A DNA stretch of 64,000 nucleotides from Actinomycetes bacterium (GCA_021793675.1 JAJYSG010000001.1:41702-105701); one strand, 5' to 3'; positions 33,778 through 45,809 are shown, counted from the first letter of the stretch. Notes: generated from the letters alone by a model not told the origin. A program made the numbers and translations.

Positions 33778-35331
33778 ATGTCCTCCCCCCAGGGCCGGAT
33801 GCGTCCGGAGCATCCGACCCCCCACCGGGTGGTGGACCTCGCCACCGCCTTCGGGCTCGTGGGGCACGTGCCGGAGGCCCTCGTCGTCACGGGCGTCACG
33901 GTCGCGTCCGGTGACGCTCGACCGGGCGACCTGTTCGTCGCCGTCCCGGGGCGCGCCGTGCACGGCGCGCGGTACGCGGCCGCGGCAGTGGCCGGGGGCG
34001 CCGTCGCGGTGCTCACCGATGCCGCGGGCGCCCCGGACGCGGCGGCCACGGGCGTTCCGGTGCTCGTCGCCGACGATCCCCGAGCGCTGGCCGGACCGAT
34101 CGCCGCAGCGGTGTACGACGATCCCGGCGCCCGCCTGCTCACCATCGGGATCACCGGCACCAACGGCAAGACGACGACGACCTACTTCGTCGACGCGGCG
34201 CTGCGGGCGGTGCACGCGACGACGGCGGTGCTGGGCACGGTCGAGCTGCGGATCGGGGACGACGCCGTGGAGAGCCCACGCACCTCGGTCGAGGCGCCGG
34301 TGCTGCAGGCGATCTGCGCGTTGGCGCTCGAGCGGGGCGCCACGGCGGTGACCACCGAGGTGTCCTCGCACGGCCTGGCGCTCGGCCGGCTGCGCGGGAT
34401 GCGGTTCGACGTGGCGGGCTTCAGCAACCTGCAGCGCGACCACCTCGACTTCCACGGGGACATGGCGGGGTACTTCGCGGCCAAGGCGACGTTGTTCGAG
34501 CCTGACCTGGCGCGCCGCGGCGTCGTCGTGGTGGACGACGAGTGGGGCCGCCGGCTGGCGAGGCAGGCGCCGATCCCGGTGGAACGCGTGTCCACGCACG
34601 CTGCCGACCCGCAGGACGCCGAGTGGACCGTCACCGAGGCGCAGATCGGGCTGGACGGGGTGGGGTCCTCGTTCGTGCTGCGGGGCCCGGACGGCGTCCA
34701 CCACGCGGCCAGCAGCCCGCTGCCGGGCCTGGTCAACGTCTCCAACGCCGCGCTGGCGATCGTGCTGGCGCACGCCGGCGGGATCGATCTCGACGTCGCG
34801 ATCGGTGCCGTCGCGCGCGCGCACGCGATCCCCGGACGCATGGAACGCGTCGTCGAGCGGGGCTGCGGGCTCCCGCTGTGCCTCGTGGACTACGCCCACA
34901 CGCCGGACGCGCTCGTGCTCGCGCTGGAGGCCGTCCGGCCCATCACGCCGGGTCGGCTGATCATCGTGCTCGGCTCGGACGGCGACCGGGACCGGGGCAA
35001 GCGACCGATCATGGGGCAGATCGCCGCCCGGCTCGCGGACGTCCTCGTGGTGACGGACGAGAACCCGCGCTCGGAGGAGCCGGCCAGCATCCGCCGCGCG
35101 ATCCTTGACGGCGTGCTGGCCGAGCGGCCCGACGGGCATGACGTGCACGAGGTCGAGCCCCGTGCGGCGGCCGTCCGGCGCGCGCTCGAGCTGGCGGACG
35201 CGGCCGACACCGTGATCGTCACCGGCAAGGGCCACGAACCGACCCAGGAGGTCGCCGGGGTGTTCCACCGGTACAACGACCGTGACGTGTTCCTCGCGGT
35301 GCGGGACGAGCGCGCCGGAGCGGCGCGATGA
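33778..35331 (+). CDS. murE: UDP-N-acetylmuramoyl-tripeptide synthetase (Mur ligase MurE)
   Basis: LLTIGITGTNGKTTTTYFVDAAL, DYAHTPDALVLALEAVRP, DENPRSEEP (meso-Dpm/Lys specificity loop). Confidence 0.95.
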   Translation: MSSPQGRMRPEHPTPHRVVDLATAFGLVGHVPEALVVTGVTVASGDARPGDLFVAVPGRAVHGARYAAAAVAGGAVAVLTDAAGAPDAAATGVPVLVADDPRALAGPIAAAVYDDPGARLLTIGITGTNGKTTTTYFVDAALRAVHATTAVLGTVELRIGDDAVESPRTSVEAPVLQAICALALERGATAVTTEVSSHGLALGRLRGMRFDVAGFSNLQRDHLDFHGDMAGYFAAKATLFEPDLARRGVVVVDDEWGRRLARQAPIPVERVSTHAADPQDAEWTVTEAQIGLDGVGSSFVLRGPDGVHHAASSPLPGLVNVSNAALAIVLAHAGGIDLDVAIGAVARAHAIPGRMERVVERGCGLPLCLVDYAHTPDALVLALEAVRPITPGRLIIVLGSDGDRDRGKRPIMGQIAARLADVLVVTDENPRSEEPASIRRAILDGVLAERPDGHDVHEVEPRAAAVRRALELADAADTVIVTGKGHEPTQEVAGVFHRYNDRDVFLAVRDERAGAAR

Positions 35332-36770
35332 TCGCGCTCACCGCGGCGGAGATCGCCGCCGTCACCGGCGGCGTGCTGCACGCCCTCGACGCCTCGACGC
35401 TCCTGGCCGGTCCGGTGGTGAGCGACTCGCGCGAGGTCGTTCCCGGCGCGCTCTTCGTGGCGATCGCCGGTGAGCGCAGCGACGGCCACGCCTTCGCCGC
35501 CGCAGCGGTCGCGGCGGGTGCCCGCGCGGTGCTCGCGGCGCACGAGGTGACCGCGGACGACGGCACACCGGTCCCCACCGTCGTCGTGCCGGACGTCGTC
35601 GCCGCGCTCGGCGCCCTGGCGCGCGAGGTGCTCGCCCGGCTGCGCATGGCGGCCGCCGAGCCGGGCGGCTCGGCCCTCAAGGTCGTGGCCGTCACCGGAT
35701 CGGTCGGCAAGACGACGACGAAGGACCTGCTGCTGCAGCTGCTCGGCTCGGTCGGGCCGACGATCGCGCCGGTGCGCAGCTTCAACAACGAGATCGGCCT
35801 GCCGCTGACGGTGCTGCGGGCCGACGAGGACACCCGCTACCTGGTCCTGGAGATGGGGGCCAGCGGCATCGGGCACATCGCCTACCTCACCGGCATCGCG
35901 CCGCCCGACGTCGCGATCGTGCTGGTGGTCGGCGCGGCACACGTGGGGCAGTTCGGCGGCCTCGAGGCCACGGCGCGCGCCAAGTCCGAGCTCGTCACCG
36001 GGCTGGTGCCGGAGGGCGTCGCGGTGCTGAACGCCGACGACGACCGCGTCGCGGCCATGGCGGCGCTCACGCCGGCGGAGGTCGTCACGTTCGGGCTCTC
36101 GTCGGACGCGCAGGTGCAGGCGGTCGACGTGCGGCTCGTCGACGGCGGCCACCCGCAGCTGACGCTGCTCGACGCGCGCGGGCCGGAGCCCCGGTCCGCA
36201 CCGGTGCGGCTGCGCCTGGTGGGCGAGCACCATGTCCACAACGCCCTCGCGGCGGCCGCGGCGGCGCTCGTCGTGGGGCTCGACCTCGCGACGGTGGCGG
36301 ACGGCCTGGCCGGTGCCGAGGCGCTGAGCCCGCACCGCATGCACGTGGTCGACCGGCCGGACGGTGTCACGGTGGTCGACGACTCCTACAACGCGAACCC
36401 GGACTCGATGCGTGCCGCGCTCAAGGCGCTGGCCGCGCTCGCCGGCCGGCAGCGGCGCTCCGTCGCGGTGCTGGGCGAGATGCTCGAGCTCGGTCCGCAG
36501 GCGCGCTCGGCGCACGACGCCATCGGGCGGCTGGCCGTCCGGCTCGACATCGGGCTGACGGTCGTCGTCGGGGACGGCGCCCGGGCGATCGCGGACGGCG
36601 CGGCGCAGGAGGGCTCGTGGGGCGACGAGGTGGTGCTCGTCGACGACGTCGACGCGGCGGCCGCGCTGCTGCAGGAGCGGCTGCGTCCGGGTGACGTGGT
36701 GCTTGTCAAGTCGTCGTACGGCGCCGGGCTGTGGCGCCTCGGTGACCGGCTGCTGGAGGTGCAGGCATGA
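35328..36770 (+). CDS. murF: UDP-N-acetylmuramoyl-tripeptide-D-alanyl-D-alanine ligase
   Basis: VVAVTGSVGKTTTKDLLLQLL, VVDDSYNANPDSMRAALKAL. Confidence 0.96.
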   Translation: MIALTAAEIAAVTGGVLHALDASTLLAGPVVSDSREVVPGALFVAIAGERSDGHAFAAAAVAAGARAVLAAHEVTADDGTPVPTVVVPDVVAALGALAREVLARLRMAAAEPGGSALKVVAVTGSVGKTTTKDLLLQLLGSVGPTIAPVRSFNNEIGLPLTVLRADEDTRYLVLEMGASGIGHIAYLTGIAPPDVAIVLVVGAAHVGQFGGLEATARAKSELVTGLVPEGVAVLNADDDRVAAMAALTPAEVVTFGLSSDAQVQAVDVRLVDGGHPQLTLLDARGPEPRSAPVRLRLVGEHHVHNALAAAAAALVVGLDLATVADGLAGAEALSPHRMHVVDRPDGVTVVDDSYNANPDSMRAALKALAALAGRQRRSVAVLGEMLELGPQARSAHDAIGRLAVRLDIGLTVVVGDGARAIADGAAQEGSWGDEVVLVDDVDAAAALLQERLRPGDVVLVKSSYGAGLWRLGDRLLEVQA

Positions 36771-37849
36771 AGGCCCCGCTGTTCTCCGGCGGCCTGTCGA
36801 TGCTCATCTCCCTGCTCGGCACGCCGCTGTTCATCCGCTTCCTGGTGCGGCGGCAGTACGGCCAGTTCATCCGGCAGGACGGACCGACGGCGCACTTCAC
36901 GAAGCGCGGCACGCCCACCATGGGCGGCGTCGTCATCATCCTGGCCAGCATCCTCGGCTGGGCCGCGGGGCTGCTGCTCACCGGCACCAGGCCGACGGTG
37001 TCGGCCGGCCTCGTGCTGTTCCTCATGGCCGGGCTCGGCGTCGTCGGCTTCCTCGACGACTTCATCAAGATCTCGCGTCAGCGCAGCCTGGGGCTCTCGC
37101 CGCTGGCGAAGATCATCGGTCAGGGGCTGGTGGGCATCGCGTTCGCCGCGGCCGCGCTGCACTTCCCGAACTCGCACGGGCTGACGCCCGCCTCGACGCA
37201 CATCTCGTTCATCCGCGACACGCGTGTCGATCTCGCGTTCGGCGGGGCGGCCGTGGGCCTGGTGCTGTTCGTCATCTGGGCGAACTTCCTCATCACCGCC
37301 TGGTCGAACTCCGTCAACCTCACGGACGGCCTGGACGGGCTGGCGACCGGGGCGTCGATCTTCGTCCTCGGCGCGTACGTCATGGTGGGCGTCTGGCAGA
37401 ACAACCAGACCTGCCAGCACCTGGCCACGCTGGGGCCGCGATGCTACGAGACGCGCGACCCGCTGGCGATGGCGGCCGTGGCCGCCGCCGTGACCGGTGC
37501 GCTGTTCGGATTCCTGTGGTGGAACGCCAGTCCTGCCCAGATCTTCATGGGCGACACCGGGTCGCTCGCGCTCGGCGGCGCCCTGGCCGGCATCTCGATC
37601 CTCACGCGCACCGAGATCCTTGCGGCGATCATCGGCGGCATCTTCGTGCTCGAGGTGCTCAGCGACGTCATCCAGATCGGGTTCTTCAAGCTGACGCGAC
37701 GACGAGTGTTCCGGATGGCCCCGCTGCACCACCACTTCGAGCTGAGCGGCTGGGGCGAGGTGACGATCGTCATCCGGTTCTGGATCGTCGCCGGCCTGTT
37801 CGTGATGATCGGCGTGGGGATCTTCTACGCGGAGTGGGTGACGGGGTAG
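36767..37849 (+). CDS. mraY: Phospho-N-acetylmuramoyl-pentapeptide-transferase
   Basis: GTPTMGGVVII, NLTDGLDGLATG, FMGDTGSLALGG, MAPLHHHFELSGW. Confidence 0.97.
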   Translation: MKAPLFSGGLSMLISLLGTPLFIRFLVRRQYGQFIRQDGPTAHFTKRGTPTMGGVVIILASILGWAAGLLLTGTRPTVSAGLVLFLMAGLGVVGFLDDFIKISRQRSLGLSPLAKIIGQGLVGIAFAAAALHFPNSHGLTPASTHISFIRDTRVDLAFGGAAVGLVLFVIWANFLITAWSNSVNLTDGLDGLATGASIFVLGAYVMVGVWQNNQTCQHLATLGPRCYETRDPLAMAAVAAAVTGALFGFLWWNASPAQIFMGDTGSLALGGALAGISILTRTEILAAIIGGIFVLEVLSDVIQIGFFKLTRRRVFRMAPLHHHFELSGWGEVTIVIRFWIVAGLFVMIGVGIFYAEWVTG

Positions 37850-39283
37850 GTGACGTGGCACGGCGTCCGGGTGCTGGTGGCCGGGCTGGGGATCTCGGGA
37901 CGGGCTGCGGTGCGGGTGCTCGCCGCACGCGGCGCGCAGGTGACGACGTACGACGACGTCGCGGCGGACGCCGACGAGCGGGACGCCGCGGCGTTCCTGC
38001 GACGTGACGGGCTGGCCGCGGTCGACCTCGTCGTGACCTCGCCGGGGCTGCGGCCTGACCATCCGGTGCTGGCGGCGGCGCTCGCCCGGGGCATCGAGGT
38101 GGTCTCCGAGGTGGAGCTGGCGTGGCGGCTGCGCGTGCCGCGAGCCGCCGGGGTCGGACCGGCGCCCTGGCTCGCCGTCACCGGCACCAACGGCAAGACC
38201 ACGACCGTGGGGATGCTGGCTGCGATCCTCGCGGCGGGGGGCGAACGGGTCGCCGCGGTGGGCAACGTGGGCTCGCCGATCGTGCTCGCGGCCACCGACC
38301 CGTCGCTCGACGTCCTGGCGGTGGAGCTGTCCAGCTTCCAGCTGCACTTCACGCACTCGATGTCGGTCGAGGCGGGCGCCGTGCTCAACGTCGCGCCGGA
38401 CCACATCGACTGGCACGGCTCGTTCGAGGCGTACGCCGCGGACAAGGGTCGGGTCCTGCAGCGCGCGCGGCTGGCGTGCGTCTACAACGTGGCCGACGAG
38501 ACCACCCGCCGGCTGGTGGAGGAGGCGGACGTCGCCGACGGGGCGCTCGCGGTGGGTTTCACGCTGGGCACGCCGTCGGTCGGTCAGCTGGGTCTCGTCG
38601 AGGACGTGCTGGTGGACCGGGGGTTCGCGCCGCAACGTCACACCCACGCGCAGGAGCTGGCGACGCTGGACGACCTGGCGCAGCTCGCCGGGCCGGACGG
38701 ACGGGTCGCGCCGCACGTCGTCGCCGACGCCCTCGCCGCTGCCGCCCTGGCCCTGGCGCACGGCGTGCCGCCGCAGGCCGTGCGGGACGGGTTGCGCGCC
38801 TTCGGCCCTGGTGCGCACCGCATCGCCACGGTCGCCACGGTGGACGAGGTCGCCTACGTGGACGACTCCAAGGCGACCAACGCGCACGCCGCTGCCGCAT
38901 CCCTCGCCGCCTTCCCGCCGCACTCGGTCGTCTGGATCGCCGGCGGCCTGGCGAAGGGCGCGACGTTCGACGAGCTGGTCGCTGCCCGCGCCGACCGCCT
39001 GGTGGGCGCGGTGCTCATCGGCGTGGACCGCGAGCCGTTGGCGGGGGCGCTGGCCCGACACGCGCCCGAGGTTCCGGTGATCGAGGTCGAGGCGACAGAG
39101 ACTGGCGAGGTGATGCCCCACGCCGCGTCCGTCGCCCGACGGCTGGCCACCGGGGCGCCCGCCGGAACGCACGTCACCGTGCTGCTCGCGCCGGCGTGCG
39201 CGTCGATGGACCAGTTCGTCTCGTACGCGGACCGGGGCGACCGGTTCGCGGCCGCGGTCCGGGACCTGACCGAGGGGGCGTGA
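37850..39283 (+). CDS. murD: UDP-N-acetylmuramoylalanine-D-glutamate ligase
   Basis: WLAVTGTNGKTTTVGMLAAIL, NVAPDHIDWHGSFEAYAADKGRVL, VDDSKATNAHAAAASLAAF. Confidence 0.96.
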   Translation: MTWHGVRVLVAGLGISGRAAVRVLAARGAQVTTYDDVAADADERDAAAFLRRDGLAAVDLVVTSPGLRPDHPVLAAALARGIEVVSEVELAWRLRVPRAAGVGPAPWLAVTGTNGKTTTVGMLAAILAAGGERVAAVGNVGSPIVLAATDPSLDVLAVELSSFQLHFTHSMSVEAGAVLNVAPDHIDWHGSFEAYAADKGRVLQRARLACVYNVADETTRRLVEEADVADGALAVGFTLGTPSVGQLGLVEDVLVDRGFAPQRHTHAQELATLDDLAQLAGPDGRVAPHVVADALAAAALALAHGVPPQAVRDGLRAFGPGAHRIATVATVDEVAYVDDSKATNAHAAAASLAAFPPHSVVWIAGGLAKGATFDELVAARADRLVGAVLIGVDREPLAGALARHAPEVPVIEVEATETGEVMPHAASVARRLATGAPAGTHVTVLLAPACASMDQFVSYADRGDRFAAAVRDLTEGA

Positions 39284-40542
39284 GGCCGGTGGCGGCGACC
39301 CGTCCGGCCCCGGCTGCTGCGCCCGCCGCGCCGGCGACGGTGCGTCCGGCGTCCGCGCTCGGGCAGTGGAACAGCGCGGTGACCAGCTACTACGTCCTGG
39401 CCGGCGCGACCGCGTTGCTGCTCGTCCTCGGGCTGGTCATGGTGCTGTCGAGCTCGAGCGTCGACTCGCTGGCGGCCAGCCGGTCCCCGTACACGCAGTT
39501 CCTCAACCAGACGAAGTACGCGCTCATCGGGCTGCCGGTCATGCTGGCCCTGGCGAAGATGCCGCCGCGCCGGCTGCGGACCCTCGCGTGGCCGGCACTG
39601 ATCGGCGCCGTGCTGTTCCAGGGGCTGGTCTTCACACCCTTGGGTGCCACCGAGAACGGCAACACGAACTGGGTGCGCCTGCCCGGTTTTCAGGCGCAGC
39701 CGTCGGAGATGATCAAGTTCGGCCTCGCGCTCTGGCTGGGTGCGGTGCTCGCGCGCAAGCTGCCGCTGCTGCACGAGTGGAAGCACGCGCTGATCCCGGC
39801 GGTCCCCGTGGCCGCGGGTGCGATCGGCGTCGTCCTGCTGGGCGGGGACCTGGGGACGACGATGGTGCTGTTCCTGCTCGTCTTCGGGGCGTTGTGGGTC
39901 TCGGGGATGAAGCTGCGCATGTTCGCGGTGCCCGCCCTGGCGGTCGGCCTCGTGACGGCGCCGCTCGTCATGCTCAACGGCAACCGATCGGGGCGCATCT
40001 CGGCCTGGCTCCACCCGCAGACCGTCGACCAGGGTGGCCTCGGCCTCACCTACCAGTCCAAGCACGGCATCTGGGCGCTCGGCACCGGTGGCTGGGGTGG
40101 TCTGGGGCTCGGGGAGAGCCGCGAGAAGTGGGGCTACCTGCCCGAGGCGCACAACGACTTCGTGTTCGCGATCATCGGGGAGGAGCTGGGACTGCTGGGC
40201 ACGCTGCTCGTCGTGGCGCTCTTCGGGCTGCTCGCGTTCGCGATGGTCCGGGTGATCCGGCGGCACGACGACGCGTTCGCCCAGATCACCACCGGCGCGA
40301 TCATGCTGTGGATCATCGGGCAGGCGCTCATCAACATCGCCGTGGTCCTCGGCCTGCTGCCCGTCATGGGGGTCCCGCTGCCGCTGGTGTCCGCCGGCGG
40401 ATCCGCGCTCATCATGACGATGGCGGCGCTCGGGGTGGTGATCGGCTTCGCGCGGTCGGAGCCGGGCGCTGCCGAGGCGCTCGCGGCCCGGCCGTCCGTG
40501 TTCCGACGGTCGCTGGCCGTGCTGGGGCGGGCCCGTGGCTGA
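39280..40542 (+). CDS. ftsW: SEDS peptidoglycan polymerase FtsW (GTG start)
   Basis: PSEMIKFGLALWLGAVLARK, EAHNDFVFAIIGEELGLLGTLLVV, GVPLPLVSAGGSALIMTMAALGVV. Confidence 0.95.
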   Translation: MRPVAATRPAPAAAPAAPATVRPASALGQWNSAVTSYYVLAGATALLLVLGLVMVLSSSSVDSLAASRSPYTQFLNQTKYALIGLPVMLALAKMPPRRLRTLAWPALIGAVLFQGLVFTPLGATENGNTNWVRLPGFQAQPSEMIKFGLALWLGAVLARKLPLLHEWKHALIPAVPVAAGAIGVVLLGGDLGTTMVLFLLVFGALWVSGMKLRMFAVPALAVGLVTAPLVMLNGNRSGRISAWLHPQTVDQGGLGLTYQSKHGIWALGTGGWGGLGLGESREKWGYLPEAHNDFVFAIIGEELGLLGTLLVVALFGLLAFAMVRVIRRHDDAFAQITTGAIMLWIIGQALINIAVVLGLLPVMGVPLPLVSAGGSALIMTMAALGVVIGFARSEPGAAEALAARPSVFRRSLAVLGRARG

Positions 40543-43234
40543 ACCCGCGGTGCTGCTGGCCGGCGGAGGCACGGCGGGTCACGTCAACCCGCTGCTCGCG
40601 GTCGCCGACGCCCTGCGCGAGGCCCGGCCCGGGCTGGGCCTCGTGGTGCTCGGCACGGTCGAGGGCCTCGAGTCGCGCCTGGTGCCCGAGCACGGCCTCG
40701 AGCTCGCGGTGGTGCCGCGGGTGCCGCTGCCCCGCCGCCCGACGCTCGACTGGCTGCGACTGCCCGGCAGGCTGCGCGCGGCGGTGCGTGCCGCCGGCCG
40801 GGCGATCGACGACTCGGGCGCGGCGGTGGTCGTCGGCTTCGGCGGATACGTCGCGACGCCCGCCTACCTGGCGGCCCGTCGCCGCCGGTTGCCCGTCGTG
40901 GTGCACGAGCAGAACGCGCGCCCGGGGCTGGCGAACCGGCTCGGTGCCCGGTGGGCCAGCGCCGTCGCCACCACGTTTCCCGCGACCCGCCTGCCGCACG
41001 CGCAGGTCACCGGCCTGCCGTTGCGACCGGCGGTGGCCCGGCTCGCGGCGGACCGGGCCGCCGACCCCGTCGTGGCGCGGGCCCGGGGCGCGGTCGAGCT
41101 GGGGCTGGACCCGGCGTTCCCCACGCTGCTCGTGACCGGCGGCTCGCTCGGTGCCGCCAGCCTCAACCGCGCGGTGTCCGGCGCCGCCGCCGAGCTGCTC
41201 GCGGCCGGGGTCCAGGTGGTCCACCTCACCGGCGCCGGCAAGGCGGAGGCGGTGCGCGCCGCGCTGGCGGGCGTCGGCGGCGCCGAGCGCTACCACGTGC
41301 TGGAGTACCTGCCTCGGATGGAGCTGGCGCTGGCGGTCGCCGACCTCGTGGTGTGTCGCGCGGGTGCCGGCACGGTGTGCGAGCTGGCCGCGCTCGGCAT
41401 CCCGGCGGTGTACGTGCCGCTGCCCTTCGGCAACGGCGAGCAGCGTCTCAACGCCGCGGGCGTGGTGCAGGCCGGCGGGGGCCTACTGGTCGAGGACGAG
41501 GCCCTGACCCCCGCCTGGGTGCGGTCCCGGCTGGTGCCGCTGCTGGCCGACGAGGCGTCCGCGGCGAACCGCGCGCGGATGGCGACCGCGGCGGCGACGG
41601 TCGGTGTGCGCGACGCGGCCGCGCGGGTCGCGGCCCTGGTCACGGCGTTGCTGCCGGCGGCGTCCGACGCCTCGTCGGCCATCGGATCGGCGCTGACCGG
41701 CCCTGCGGCGGCCGGCTGGTCGCTCGCCGGAGCTGCGCCGGCCGGCTCCGCGTCGCCCGGCCCGTCGTCCACCGGAGCTGTGCCGACGGGCCCGTCGTCC
41801 ATCGGCGGCGCGGCCGGTGCGCCGTACCGGCCACCCGCGGTGGTCGACCTCGGGCGCGTCCACCTGGTGGGCGTGGGCGGGGTGGGCATGTCGGCGGTCG
41901 CCACGCTGCTGGCGGGACGCGGGCTGGTGGTCTCCGGGTCCGACGCCGCGGACGGCCCTGCGCTGCCCGGCCTGCGCGCGGCGGGCGTGCAGGTCCACGT
42001 CGGTCACGACGCGGACCACGTGGTGGGCGTGGACACCCTCGTCGTCTCGTCGGCGGTGCGTGAGACGAACCCTGAGCTCGTGGCTGCCCGCGCCGCCGGG
42101 CTGCGGGTGCTGCACCGTTCCGAGGCGCTGGCCGCTCTCATGGCCGAGCGGGACGCCGTCGCGGTCGCGGGCGCGCACGGCAAGACGACCACGTCGGCGA
42201 TGCTCGCCACCGCGCTGGTCGAGGCCGGCGCCGACCCGTCGTTCGCGATCGGGGGCGTCGTGCTGGGGCCTGACGGTCCGCTCGGGGGGTCCCGCGACGG
42301 CGCCGGACCGTTCGTCGCCGAGGCCGACGAGTCGGACGGCTCGTTCCTCAACTACGCACCGCTCGTCGCCGTCGTCACCAACGTGGAACCGGACCACCTG
42401 GACCACTACGGCACGCGGGAGGCCTTCGAGGAGGCGTTCGTCCAGTTCGCCGACAGGATCCGGCCCGGTGGGCTGCTCGTCGCGTGCGCGGACGACGACG
42501 GCGCGGCGCGGCTGGTGGCCCGCGTGCGCGCGGGGTTGGGGCGCGCCGGCGTGGCCGTGACGACGTACGGCCGGTCGCCGGACGCGGACGTGCGCGTCGG
42601 GCCGACGACCCGTGACGCGGACGGCTCGTGGACCACCGTGGTGACCGCACCGGACGCGGACGCGGAGCTGCACCTCGCGGTCCCCGGCGAGCACAACGGG
42701 CTGGACGCGGCGGCGGCGTGGACGGCGCTGCGCCGGCTCGGCCTGTCACCGCAGGCGGCCGCCGAAGGCCTGGCGTCCTTCCGTGGCACGGGCCGACGGT
42801 TCGAGGACCGGGGCACCGCCGGTGGCGTGCGGGTGGTGGACGACTACGCCCACCACCCGACCGAGATCGCGGCCCTGCTGAGCGCCGCGCGGCAGGTGAC
42901 CGAGGGCCGGCTCGTCGTGCTCTTCCAGCCGCACCTGTACTCCCGGACGAAGGCCTTCGCCGCGCAGTTCGCGGCGGCCCTCGCGGCGGCCGACGAGGTC
43001 GTCGTCACGGACGTCTACGCGGCGCGCGAGGACCCGGACCCGGCGGTGACCGGGGCGCTGATCACCGAGCGGATGGCGGGGCGGGCGCACTTCGTCGCCG
43101 ATCGCTGGGAGGCGGCCCGGGTGGCGGCAGGCCTCGCGCACCCGGGCGACCTGCTGCTCACGGTGGGTGCCGGGGACGTCACGGCGCTTGCTCCGGTGGT
43201 GCTCGAGGCTCTGGCCGCGGGACGCGCGTCGTGA
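40535..43234 (+). CDS. MurG-MurC fusion: GlcNAc transferase MurG (aa ~1-376) + low-complexity linker + UDP-MurNAc-L-alanine ligase MurC (aa ~436-899)
   Basis: One uninterrupted 899-codon ORF: MurG motifs LLAGGGTAGHVNPLLAVADAL, VHEQNARPGLANRLGARWA, VVCRAGAGTVCELAALGIPAVYVPLPF; MurC motifs VHLVGVGGVGMSAVATLLA, AVAGAHGKTTTSAMLATAL, VEPDHLDHYGT, VVDDYAHHPTEIAALLSAAR. Confidence 0.9.
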   Translation: MAEPAVLLAGGGTAGHVNPLLAVADALREARPGLGLVVLGTVEGLESRLVPEHGLELAVVPRVPLPRRPTLDWLRLPGRLRAAVRAAGRAIDDSGAAVVVGFGGYVATPAYLAARRRRLPVVVHEQNARPGLANRLGARWASAVATTFPATRLPHAQVTGLPLRPAVARLAADRAADPVVARARGAVELGLDPAFPTLLVTGGSLGAASLNRAVSGAAAELLAAGVQVVHLTGAGKAEAVRAALAGVGGAERYHVLEYLPRMELALAVADLVVCRAGAGTVCELAALGIPAVYVPLPFGNGEQRLNAAGVVQAGGGLLVEDEALTPAWVRSRLVPLLADEASAANRARMATAAATVGVRDAAARVAALVTALLPAASDASSAIGSALTGPAAAGWSLAGAAPAGSASPGPSSTGAVPTGPSSIGGAAGAPYRPPAVVDLGRVHLVGVGGVGMSAVATLLAGRGLVVSGSDAADGPALPGLRAAGVQVHVGHDADHVVGVDTLVVSSAVRETNPELVAARAAGLRVLHRSEALAALMAERDAVAVAGAHGKTTTSAMLATALVEAGADPSFAIGGVVLGPDGPLGGSRDGAGPFVAEADESDGSFLNYAPLVAVVTNVEPDHLDHYGTREAFEEAFVQFADRIRPGGLLVACADDDGAARLVARVRAGLGRAGVAVTTYGRSPDADVRVGPTTRDADGSWTTVVTAPDADAELHLAVPGEHNGLDAAAAWTALRRLGLSPQAAAEGLASFRGTGRRFEDRGTAGGVRVVDDYAHHPTEIAALLSAARQVTEGRLVVLFQPHLYSRTKAFAAQFAAALAAADEVVVTDVYAAREDPDPAVTGALITERMAGRAHFVADRWEAARVAAGLAHPGDLLLTVGAGDVTALAPVVLEALAAGRAS

Positions 43235-44421
43235 GCCCGTCGCGTCCGCCGGCTCCGCGTCCCTCGTCCCGGGGTGGCGGTGCTGCGCCGGCGGTCACCC
43301 GGCCGGCGTCACGGCCCGGGGCGCCCACCACAGCGGGGGCGCCCGGCGCGGCACGCCCGCCGGGCACGCCGGCCACAGCGGGGGCGCCCGTCGCGCCGCC
43401 GACACCGGACGCGGCGCCCGCGCCGTGGGTGACCCCGCCGCGGACCGGCGCCGGCGCCCGAGGCCCAGCCGCCGCGGTGCCTGGCACCCGAGGCCCGCGC
43501 GCCGACGAGTCCGCCGAGCCCCGATCCCAGGCGTCGGAGCCGTCGCCGCGCGCTGCCGCCAGCACCGCGAGCACGGTCGCCCTCGGGACACCGGTGGCCG
43601 CCGCCACCACCCGCACCACCTACGAGGTGCGCAGGTTCCGGGGGCCGGTGCGGCCGGCGGTGGTGTCGACCCGATCGGCGGAGCGGTTCGCGGAGCGCGC
43701 CCGGGCCGCCCGGAACCTGGCTCGCCGGCAGGTCGCGATCGTGGTGGGCGGCGTGCTCGCGCTCCTGGCCGTCGGCTACCTCGTGCTCTTCTCGCCGGTC
43801 TTCGCGCTCGACCCTGCGAAGACGTCCATCACCGGCGCCGGGACCGTCGTCGCGGTCGACCAGGTGGCGGCGGTGGTGACCCGGCACGGGGGCACACCGC
43901 TGCCACGCCTCGACATGGGCGCGCTGCGTGCGCAGATCCTGCAGGTGCCGGGCGTGCGTGAGGTCACCGTCTCCCGGGACTGGCCGCGTGGCCTGCGGAT
44001 CACGTTGGTGAGCCGGGAGCCGGTGGCGGCGGTGCCCGAGCAGCAGGCGCCGCAGGGCACGGCGAAGGCCGGTTTCGCGCTGCTCGACCAGGACGGCGTC
44101 CAGGTGGGCCGGACGGATGCCGTGCCGGCCGGGCTGCCGGTGGTGACCGTGCCGGTCGACGACGCGCGCACGCTGCAGGCGGTGCTCACCGTGGTGCGCC
44201 AGCTGCCGGCCGACCTCGCCACCCAGGTGGCGGCGGTCTCGGCGCAGACCCAGGACACCATCACGATGACGCTGCGCGACCACGTCACGGTGGACTGGGG
44301 GAGCGCGGACGAGACGGCGCTCAAGGTCGCCGTCCTCAAGGCGTTGCGCGCCTCGCCGGCGGCCGCCGGCGTCCACACCATCGACGTGTCGGCGCCCCGG
44401 ATGCCCATCACGAAACAGTGA
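43231..44421 (+). CDS. ftsQ: Cell division protein FtsQ (DivIB, POTRA domain) with long Ala/Pro-rich N-terminal tail
   Basis: Single TM, LGVxEVTVSRDWPRGLRITLVSREPVAAVP-type POTRA; between murC and ftsZ. Confidence 0.92.
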   Translation: MSPSRPPAPRPSSRGGGAAPAVTRPASRPGAPTTAGAPGAARPPGTPATAGAPVAPPTPDAAPAPWVTPPRTGAGARGPAAAVPGTRGPRADESAEPRSQASEPSPRAAASTASTVALGTPVAAATTRTTYEVRRFRGPVRPAVVSTRSAERFAERARAARNLARRQVAIVVGGVLALLAVGYLVLFSPVFALDPAKTSITGAGTVVAVDQVAAVVTRHGGTPLPRLDMGALRAQILQVPGVREVTVSRDWPRGLRITLVSREPVAAVPEQQAPQGTAKAGFALLDQDGVQVGRTDAVPAGLPVVTVPVDDARTLQAVLTVVRQLPADLATQVAAVSAQTQDTITMTLRDHVTVDWGSADETALKVAVLKALRASPAAAGVHTIDVSAPRMPITKQ

Positions 44422-44558: not shown

Positions 44559-45809
44559 GTGGCAGCTCCGCAGAACTACCTGGCGGTCATCAAGGTCGTC
44601 GGCATCGGCGGCGGCGGCGTCAACGCCGTCAACCGGATGATCGAGGTCGGCCTCAAGGGCGTGGAGTTCATCGCCATCAACACCGACGCGCAGGCGCTGC
44701 TCATGTCGGACGCGGACGTCAAGCTCGACGTCGGCCGTGAGCTGACCCGAGGCCTGGGCGCGGGCGCCGACCCGGAGGTGGGCCGCAAGGCGGCCGAGGA
44801 CCACGTCGAGGAGATCGAGGACGTCATCCGCGGCTCCGACATGGTGTTCGTCACCGCGGGCGAGGGCGGCGGCACCGGGACCGGAGGTGCGCCCGTGGTC
44901 GCGCGCGTGGCCCGGTCGCTCGGCGCACTGACCATCGGCGTCGTCACCCGGCCGTTCACGTTCGAGGGGCGTCGCCGCGGCGTCCAGGCGGACTCCGGGA
45001 TCGAGGCGCTGCGCGCCGAGGTCGACACGCTCATCGTCATCCCCAACGACCGCCTGCTGTCGATCTCCGACCGGTCGGTCTCGGTGCTGGACGCGTTCCG
45101 GTCCGCGGACCAGGTGCTGCTGTCCGGCGTCCAAGGCATCACGGACCTCATCACGACCCCAGGCCTCATCAACCTCGACTTCGCGGACGTCAAGTCCGTC
45201 ATGCAGGGCGCCGGCTCGGCGCTCATGGGCATCGGCTTCGCGCGGGGCGAGGACCGTGCCGTCCAGGCGGCGGAGATGGCGATCTCCTCGCCGTTGCTCG
45301 AGGCGAGCATCGACGGTGCGCACGGGGTGCTGCTCAGCATCCAGGGCGGCTCTGACCTCGGGCTGTTCGAGATCAACGAGGCGGCCCGGCTGGTGCAGGA
45401 GGCGGCGCACCCCGAGGCGAACATCATCTTCGGCGCCGTCATCGACGACGCCCTGGGCGACGAGGTGCGCGTCACGGTCATCGCCGCGGGCTTCGACGGC
45501 GGGACACCGACCGTGCGGCGCGACGCCCGCGCGCTGGGTCAGGTCAGCGCCGGCGCACCCGCGGCCGCGGCCGTGCCGCCACAGCCCCGTCCGGCCCCCT
45601 CGGCGCCGGTGCAGGCATCGGTGCCCGCACCCGTGGCGGCCGGTGGCGACCACGCGGCGCCGCCGCGTCAGCCCGAGGTGCCGGCGTTCCTGTCCAGCGA
45701 GCTCGACCCGGTGCCGCTGACCGGGTCGCTGGAGGTGCCGCGCCTCTTCACCGAGCCGGTGCCGCGCGTCGAGCACGACGAGCTGGACGTCCCCGACTTC
45801 CTCAAGTAG
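44559..45809 (+). CDS. ftsZ: Cell division GTPase FtsZ
   Basis: [54 protein letters not shown]-terminal DVPDFLK. Confidence 0.98.

Follow-up and report, generated by a model that had tools for sequence, protein, structure and literature searches.

A murG-murC gene fusion in the Cellulomonas clade and repeated switching between fused and separate states

When a single open reading frame runs through murG and on into murC, does it encode one real protein, and what would joining the two enzymes mean for the cell? MurC is the first of the Mur ligases, adding L-Ala to UDP-MurNAc, and MurG carries out the final cytoplasmic step, in which lipid II is made at the membrane. The question is raised by a 64,000-nucleotide stretch of actinomycete DNA (GCA_021793675.1, JAJYSG010000001.1:41702-105701), referred to here as the window, in which an uninterrupted frame at 40535-43234 (forward strand, as are all window features below) opens with GTG, closes with TGA and specifies 899 amino acids. 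A sequence-only reading had noted MurG motifs followed by MurC motifs in this one stop-free frame, and curated models bear this out, both halves passing their NCBIfam cut-offs: residues 6-368 score 262.2 bits with TIGR01133 (cut-off 250.25) and residues 442-888 score 436.2 bits with TIGR01082 (cut-off 335.1). Models for MurD, MurE and MurF score far under their own cut-offs on the MurC half. Pfam assigns two GT28 domains, N- and C-terminal, in the MurG domain (residues 1-370, 40535-41644) and three Mur-ligase domains in the MurC domain (residues 437-899, 41843-43231). Fold matching links the MurG half to the E. coli and P. aeruginosa enzymes (1f0k, 1nlm, 3s2u), E. coli MurG being its closest solved relative, and M. 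bovis MurC (7bva) is the closest for the MurC half. The MurG motif GGGTAGH (10-16) and the donor-site residues E283, N300, E302 and Q303 of its C-terminal region are invariant across 21 fused proteins, and the MurC P-loop GAHGKTTT (546-553) and ligase motifs EADESD (596-601) and DDYAHHPTE (769-777) are likewise invariant. AlphaFold2, with 21 fused sequences, returned two confident domains (mean pLDDT 86.5) at a pTM of 0.56, from which we draw nothing on how the MurG and MurC domains lie relative to each other. From these matches the product is predicted to be a full MurG and a full MurC joined by an Ala/Gly/Ser/Pro linker, and one bifunctional polypeptide is very probably its main form.

The linker (residues 371-436, 41645-41842) is about 65 residues long and rich in Ala, Gly, Ser and Pro; residues 377-428 are predicted to be disordered, and pLDDT below 50 in the AlphaFold2 model is confined to them. 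TRF detects a degenerate 45-bp tandem array of 2.7 copies within it (41673-41793), and the 17-bp near-repeat GGCCCGTCGTCCAyCGG reported earlier sits exactly where it was placed, read in the sequence at 41759-41775 (PGPSSTG) and 41789-41805 (TGPSSIG). An open stretch of 65 codons in a single genome of 77% G+C is in itself little evidence, since stops are rare. Inside clades whose members are all fused, linker length has shifted about a dozen times, by whole codons every time (82/83/48/41/39; 100/112/121/122; 70/31/37/40; 27/44; 33/25, by clade), and linker dN/dS over 13 pairs is 0-0.6, below 1 yet above that of MurC (0.03-0.17). On the basis of whole-codon length changes, dN/dS below 1 and predicted disorder, we take the linker to be translated and under protein-level constraint. 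Between clades linkers vary in sequence as well as length, from 14 to 122 residues, and are Pro/Ala-rich or composed of charged AER repeats. In the C. hominis group (L110, L071, L112, L011) they reach about 100-120 residues and begin with charged, helical-looking AER-type repeats, those elsewhere being Pro/Ala-rich.

The assembly that supplied the window, a 1.87-Mb MAG in 103 contigs, is fragmented and 62% complete, and it would be reasonable to ask whether a base gained or lost at the junction, within a repetitive and very G+C-rich linker, had created the fusion. The three other members of the window's clade (L002, L003, L015) are fused, however, as are finished single-contig genomes, and we consider an assembly error extremely improbable. 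The same frame recurs in 29 distinct Cellulomonas-clade loci, which include the nearest relatives and one-contig genomes (the loci comprised 80 from GTDB plus genomes added individually, with duplicates removed), and this recurrence, together with the protein-level constraint on the linker, places the fusion beyond chance. G006, G011 and G021, each a one-contig genome, contain no good murG and no murC other than the fused gene; the window's own genome yielded one murG-murC match, in an assembly of the limited completeness given above.

Within the window's genus, sampled as 24 relatives plus its own genome, 17 of the 24 classifiable genomes are fused (the window's included) and 7 are separate, C. 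fimi, C. uda and C. xylanilytica among them; G013 was too fragmented to classify. None of 28 other genomes sampled across the order is fused, with G040 unclassifiable, nor is any classifiable genome among 30 others sampled across the phylum. A search of the 899-aa product against related genomes had been suggested as a check on whether the fusion is conserved and clade-restricted, and it proves to be both. Outside the genus, G030, G055 and G073 looked as if they might be fused, having equal or long open frames or split contigs, but reading the DNA showed separate genes in each. Separately, the distant Actinomycetota MAG 0813_bin28 (L031:5986-8487; 39-45% identity) encodes MurG and MurC in a single open frame; its linker is short and differs in sequence, and this fusion apparently arose independently.

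A fused frame could nonetheless be nominal, if most MurC were a free enzyme, either translated from a start within the linker or cut loose by proteolysis. The sequence-only reading had pointed to two in-frame GTG codons, 41780-41782 and 41840-41842, as possible starts for free MurC while remarking on their poor Shine-Dalgarno (SD) context. Both exist in frame and neither has an SD signal, with anti-SD energies of -1.1 and -1.7 kcal/mol respectively; ordinary internal ATG/GTG codons are stronger, with a median of -3.2 kcal/mol and a tail in which 10% lie at -7.0 and 5% at -8.6, and separate murC genes usually have a good SD upstream of their start (median best energy -8.2 kcal/mol). Four fused loci (L105, L107, L009, L010) contain no ATG or GTG at all from the MurG C-terminal helix to the MurC HxxGxGG motif, and in three more (L108, L017, L013) the sole candidate is the Val codon immediately before the histidine of that motif. 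The proposal of free MurC from either window GTG is thus not sustained, both being without SD and some fused relatives having no start there. In some fused relatives, for example L002, L003, L106 and L124, linker GTGs are preceded by fair SD-like sequence (-7.8 to -11.1 kcal/mol, inside the background tail), and some free MurC may be made there, but neither the window nor L015, its nearest relative, shows an internal-start signal above background. The contrary case had been named as closely related strains in which murG and murC are separate, together with a strong internal initiation signal. Relatives with separate genes do exist, but no internal initiation signal is conserved in the fused genomes and none is present in the window. 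With no SD at the proposed starts, and no usable start in several fused relatives, MurC in fused species probably exists solely within the fusion. The linker being held in frame under amino-acid constraint also speaks against a nominal fusion, which we regard as unlikely.

How the fusion came about can be approached through a tree built from seven dcw proteins, aligned in 60 rows and 2922 columns, in which the outgroups are all separate. Within Cellulomonas the tree requires a minimum of 8 switches from fused to separate or back (bootstrap range 8-8), 7 of them forced by well-supported branches, and the history of the clade may be read as 11 fusions without reversal or as one fusion followed by 7 splits. 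Allowing reversals gives a better fit than treating fusion as irreversible (lnL -24.5 vs -29.5). Over the whole tree a two-rate model favours early fusion and later splits, though within the clade gains-only and losses-only models fit alike (lnL -18.6 vs -19.7). In 30 of 31 separate loci the murG stop overlaps the murC start as ATGA or GTGA, and because this overlap is so nearly universal a single frame-changing indel there could flip the state in either direction. We envisage a separate state in which murG and murC are coupled via this 4-bp overlap, from which a small indel, or loss of the murG stop, would produce a single frame; the linker would afterwards drift and lengthen through in-frame repeat slippage. 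Separate-gene lineages lie between the window's clade (L002, L003, L015) and C. gilvus, and for this reason the two fusions may be independent. Some record names sit oddly on the tree: L026, recorded as Cellulosimicrobium cellulans DE0111, clusters with the Cellulomonas hominis/pakistanensis clade and probably carries the wrong name, and two records of Cellulomonas cellasea, ET82 and NBRC 3753 (L017 and L018), fall on clearly different branches with differing fusion state, ET82 adjoining C. timonensis.

Whether so labile a character has been selected for, or is simply tolerated, can be weighed against the neighbouring junctions. The dcw gene order around the fusion is standard, murE, murF, mraY, murD, ftsW, murG-murC, ftsQ, ftsZ. 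In the same operon upstream lie murF (35328-36770; TIGR01143, 388 bits), mraY (36767-37849; TIGR00445, 305 bits) and murD (37850-39283; TIGR01087, 351 bits), and ftsW (39280-40542; TIGR02614, 348.6 bits, above cut-off) runs 8 bp into murG. Downstream, ftsQ (43231-44421; an NF004039 match below cut-off) overlaps the murC stop by the 4-bp GTGA and is followed by ftsZ (44559-45809; TIGR00065, 413 bits). In the Cellulomonas clade murG-murC is fused in 29 of 42 loci. No fusion occurs at murE-murF or murF-mraY (0/38 each, the same 4-bp overlap being present in 38/38 of both), at murD-ftsW (0/40), at ftsW-murG (0/41, and separate in 59/59 loci overall) or at murC-ftsQ (0/41, with a 4-bp overlap in 36). 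Since the N-terminus of MraY is on the periplasmic side, a murF-mraY fusion may be blocked by topology, but for a pure high-G+C effect murE-murF and murC-ftsQ serve as fair controls. Two apparent murE-murF fusions outside the clade were rejected: the frames in Actinotalea subterranea HO-Ch2 (L081:89-2161) and a related MAG (L075, about 258-2129) hold a complete MurE and only the C-terminal domain of MurF, followed by mraY. A whole-genome search of HO-Ch2 found no canonical full-length MurF, and a diverged MurF-like ORF is present at L137:970-2550 (TIGR01143, 177 bits against a cut-off of 289).

These comparisons bear directly on the possibility that the fusion is selectively neutral, an indel merging the frames, stops being rare at high G+C and free protein tails tolerating the join, with no scaffolding benefit; such an account contests the benefit of tethering and not the existence of the fusion. 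The number of switches on the seven-gene tree, the better fit of the reversal model and the unlike lengths and compositions of linkers among clades are all in its favour, and we give it close to an even chance. It sits poorly, however, with neighbouring junctions, among them murE-murF and murC-ftsQ, which are fusable, that share the 4-bp overlap and are alike in composition yet never fuse in this clade, and with the order and phylum samples, in which no classifiable genome outside the genus is fused. A bolder possibility, somewhat less likely than not, is that at least 8 switches at murG-murC alone were driven by recurrent, lineage-dependent selection for physical coupling of MurC to MurG. The specificity of the junction could also reflect structural tolerance instead of benefit.

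The predicted structure suggests how the fusion might operate, with MurG and MurC folding independently and the disordered linker serving as a flexible tether. The fusion product would be the cell's only MurC; the tether would set MurG and MurC at 1:1 and keep MurC by the membrane MurG complex, replacing translational coupling and not providing direct substrate handover. A benefit from keeping MurC tethered to MurG at the membrane is plausible, with the chances about even; the sequence-only reading had suggested scaffolding of substrate or enzymes at the divisome. Direct channelling of substrate from MurC to MurG is improbable, given that four other enzymes, MurD, MurE, MurF and MraY, work between their steps, and the same point on non-consecutive MurC and MurG steps has been made previously (PMC6420597). 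It is debated whether the cytoplasmic peptidoglycan enzymes work as a physical complex, an idea that has been invoked to explain the failure of Mur inhibitors in cells. Counting against it, the Mur ligases of M. tuberculosis were not seen to interact with one another (PMC3605390). Should the selective reading be true, Cellulomonas would amount to a natural experiment on this debated complex. Close species that differ in the covalent MurG-MurC link offer matched pairs for testing it, for example fused C. gilvus with separate C. uda, and fused G005 with separate C. xylanilytica.

As a kind, the MurG-MurC fusion is already published, and the window's gene is another member: Laddomada, Miyachiro and Dessen (2016) described murG/murC fusions and named C. 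gilvus in the legend to their Fig. 3 (PMC4929429). A search of the open-licence literature for the literal phrase murG-murC gave no further fusion report, and no paper describing either the repeated switching or the junction control was found there. The C. gilvus fusion (G021, fused in our tree) matches the window's in gene pair, order, genus and single ORF; it differs in belonging to another subclade, in having a nearest relative, C. uda, with separate genes, and in linker length and sequence. Comparable in another way is the MurE-MurF fusion of Bordetella pertussis, which also joins Mur enzymes adjacent in the dcw cluster in one flexible polypeptide, is expressed as a single protein and binds MurG (PMC6420597). 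That fusion unites consecutive ligase steps, however, whereas in the window's the first ligase is linked to the glycosyltransferase that acts last. In Chlamydia MurC-Ddl and Verrucomicrobium MurB-MurC, MurC is likewise fused to a pathway enzyme but the partners differ, and the MurC-Ddl model PRK14573 scores 263 on the window product against a cut-off of 1015. The FtsW/MurG fusion of 'K. flavida' is again an actinomycete dcw fusion involving MurG, but at the upstream junction (PMC4929429).

One further feature lies just beyond the fused gene. FtsQ carries an N-terminal extension of about 140 residues (43231-43650) that is rich in Pro, Ala and Gly and resembles the murG-murC linker, and its DNA contains tandem repeats at 43340-43374 and 43446-43504.
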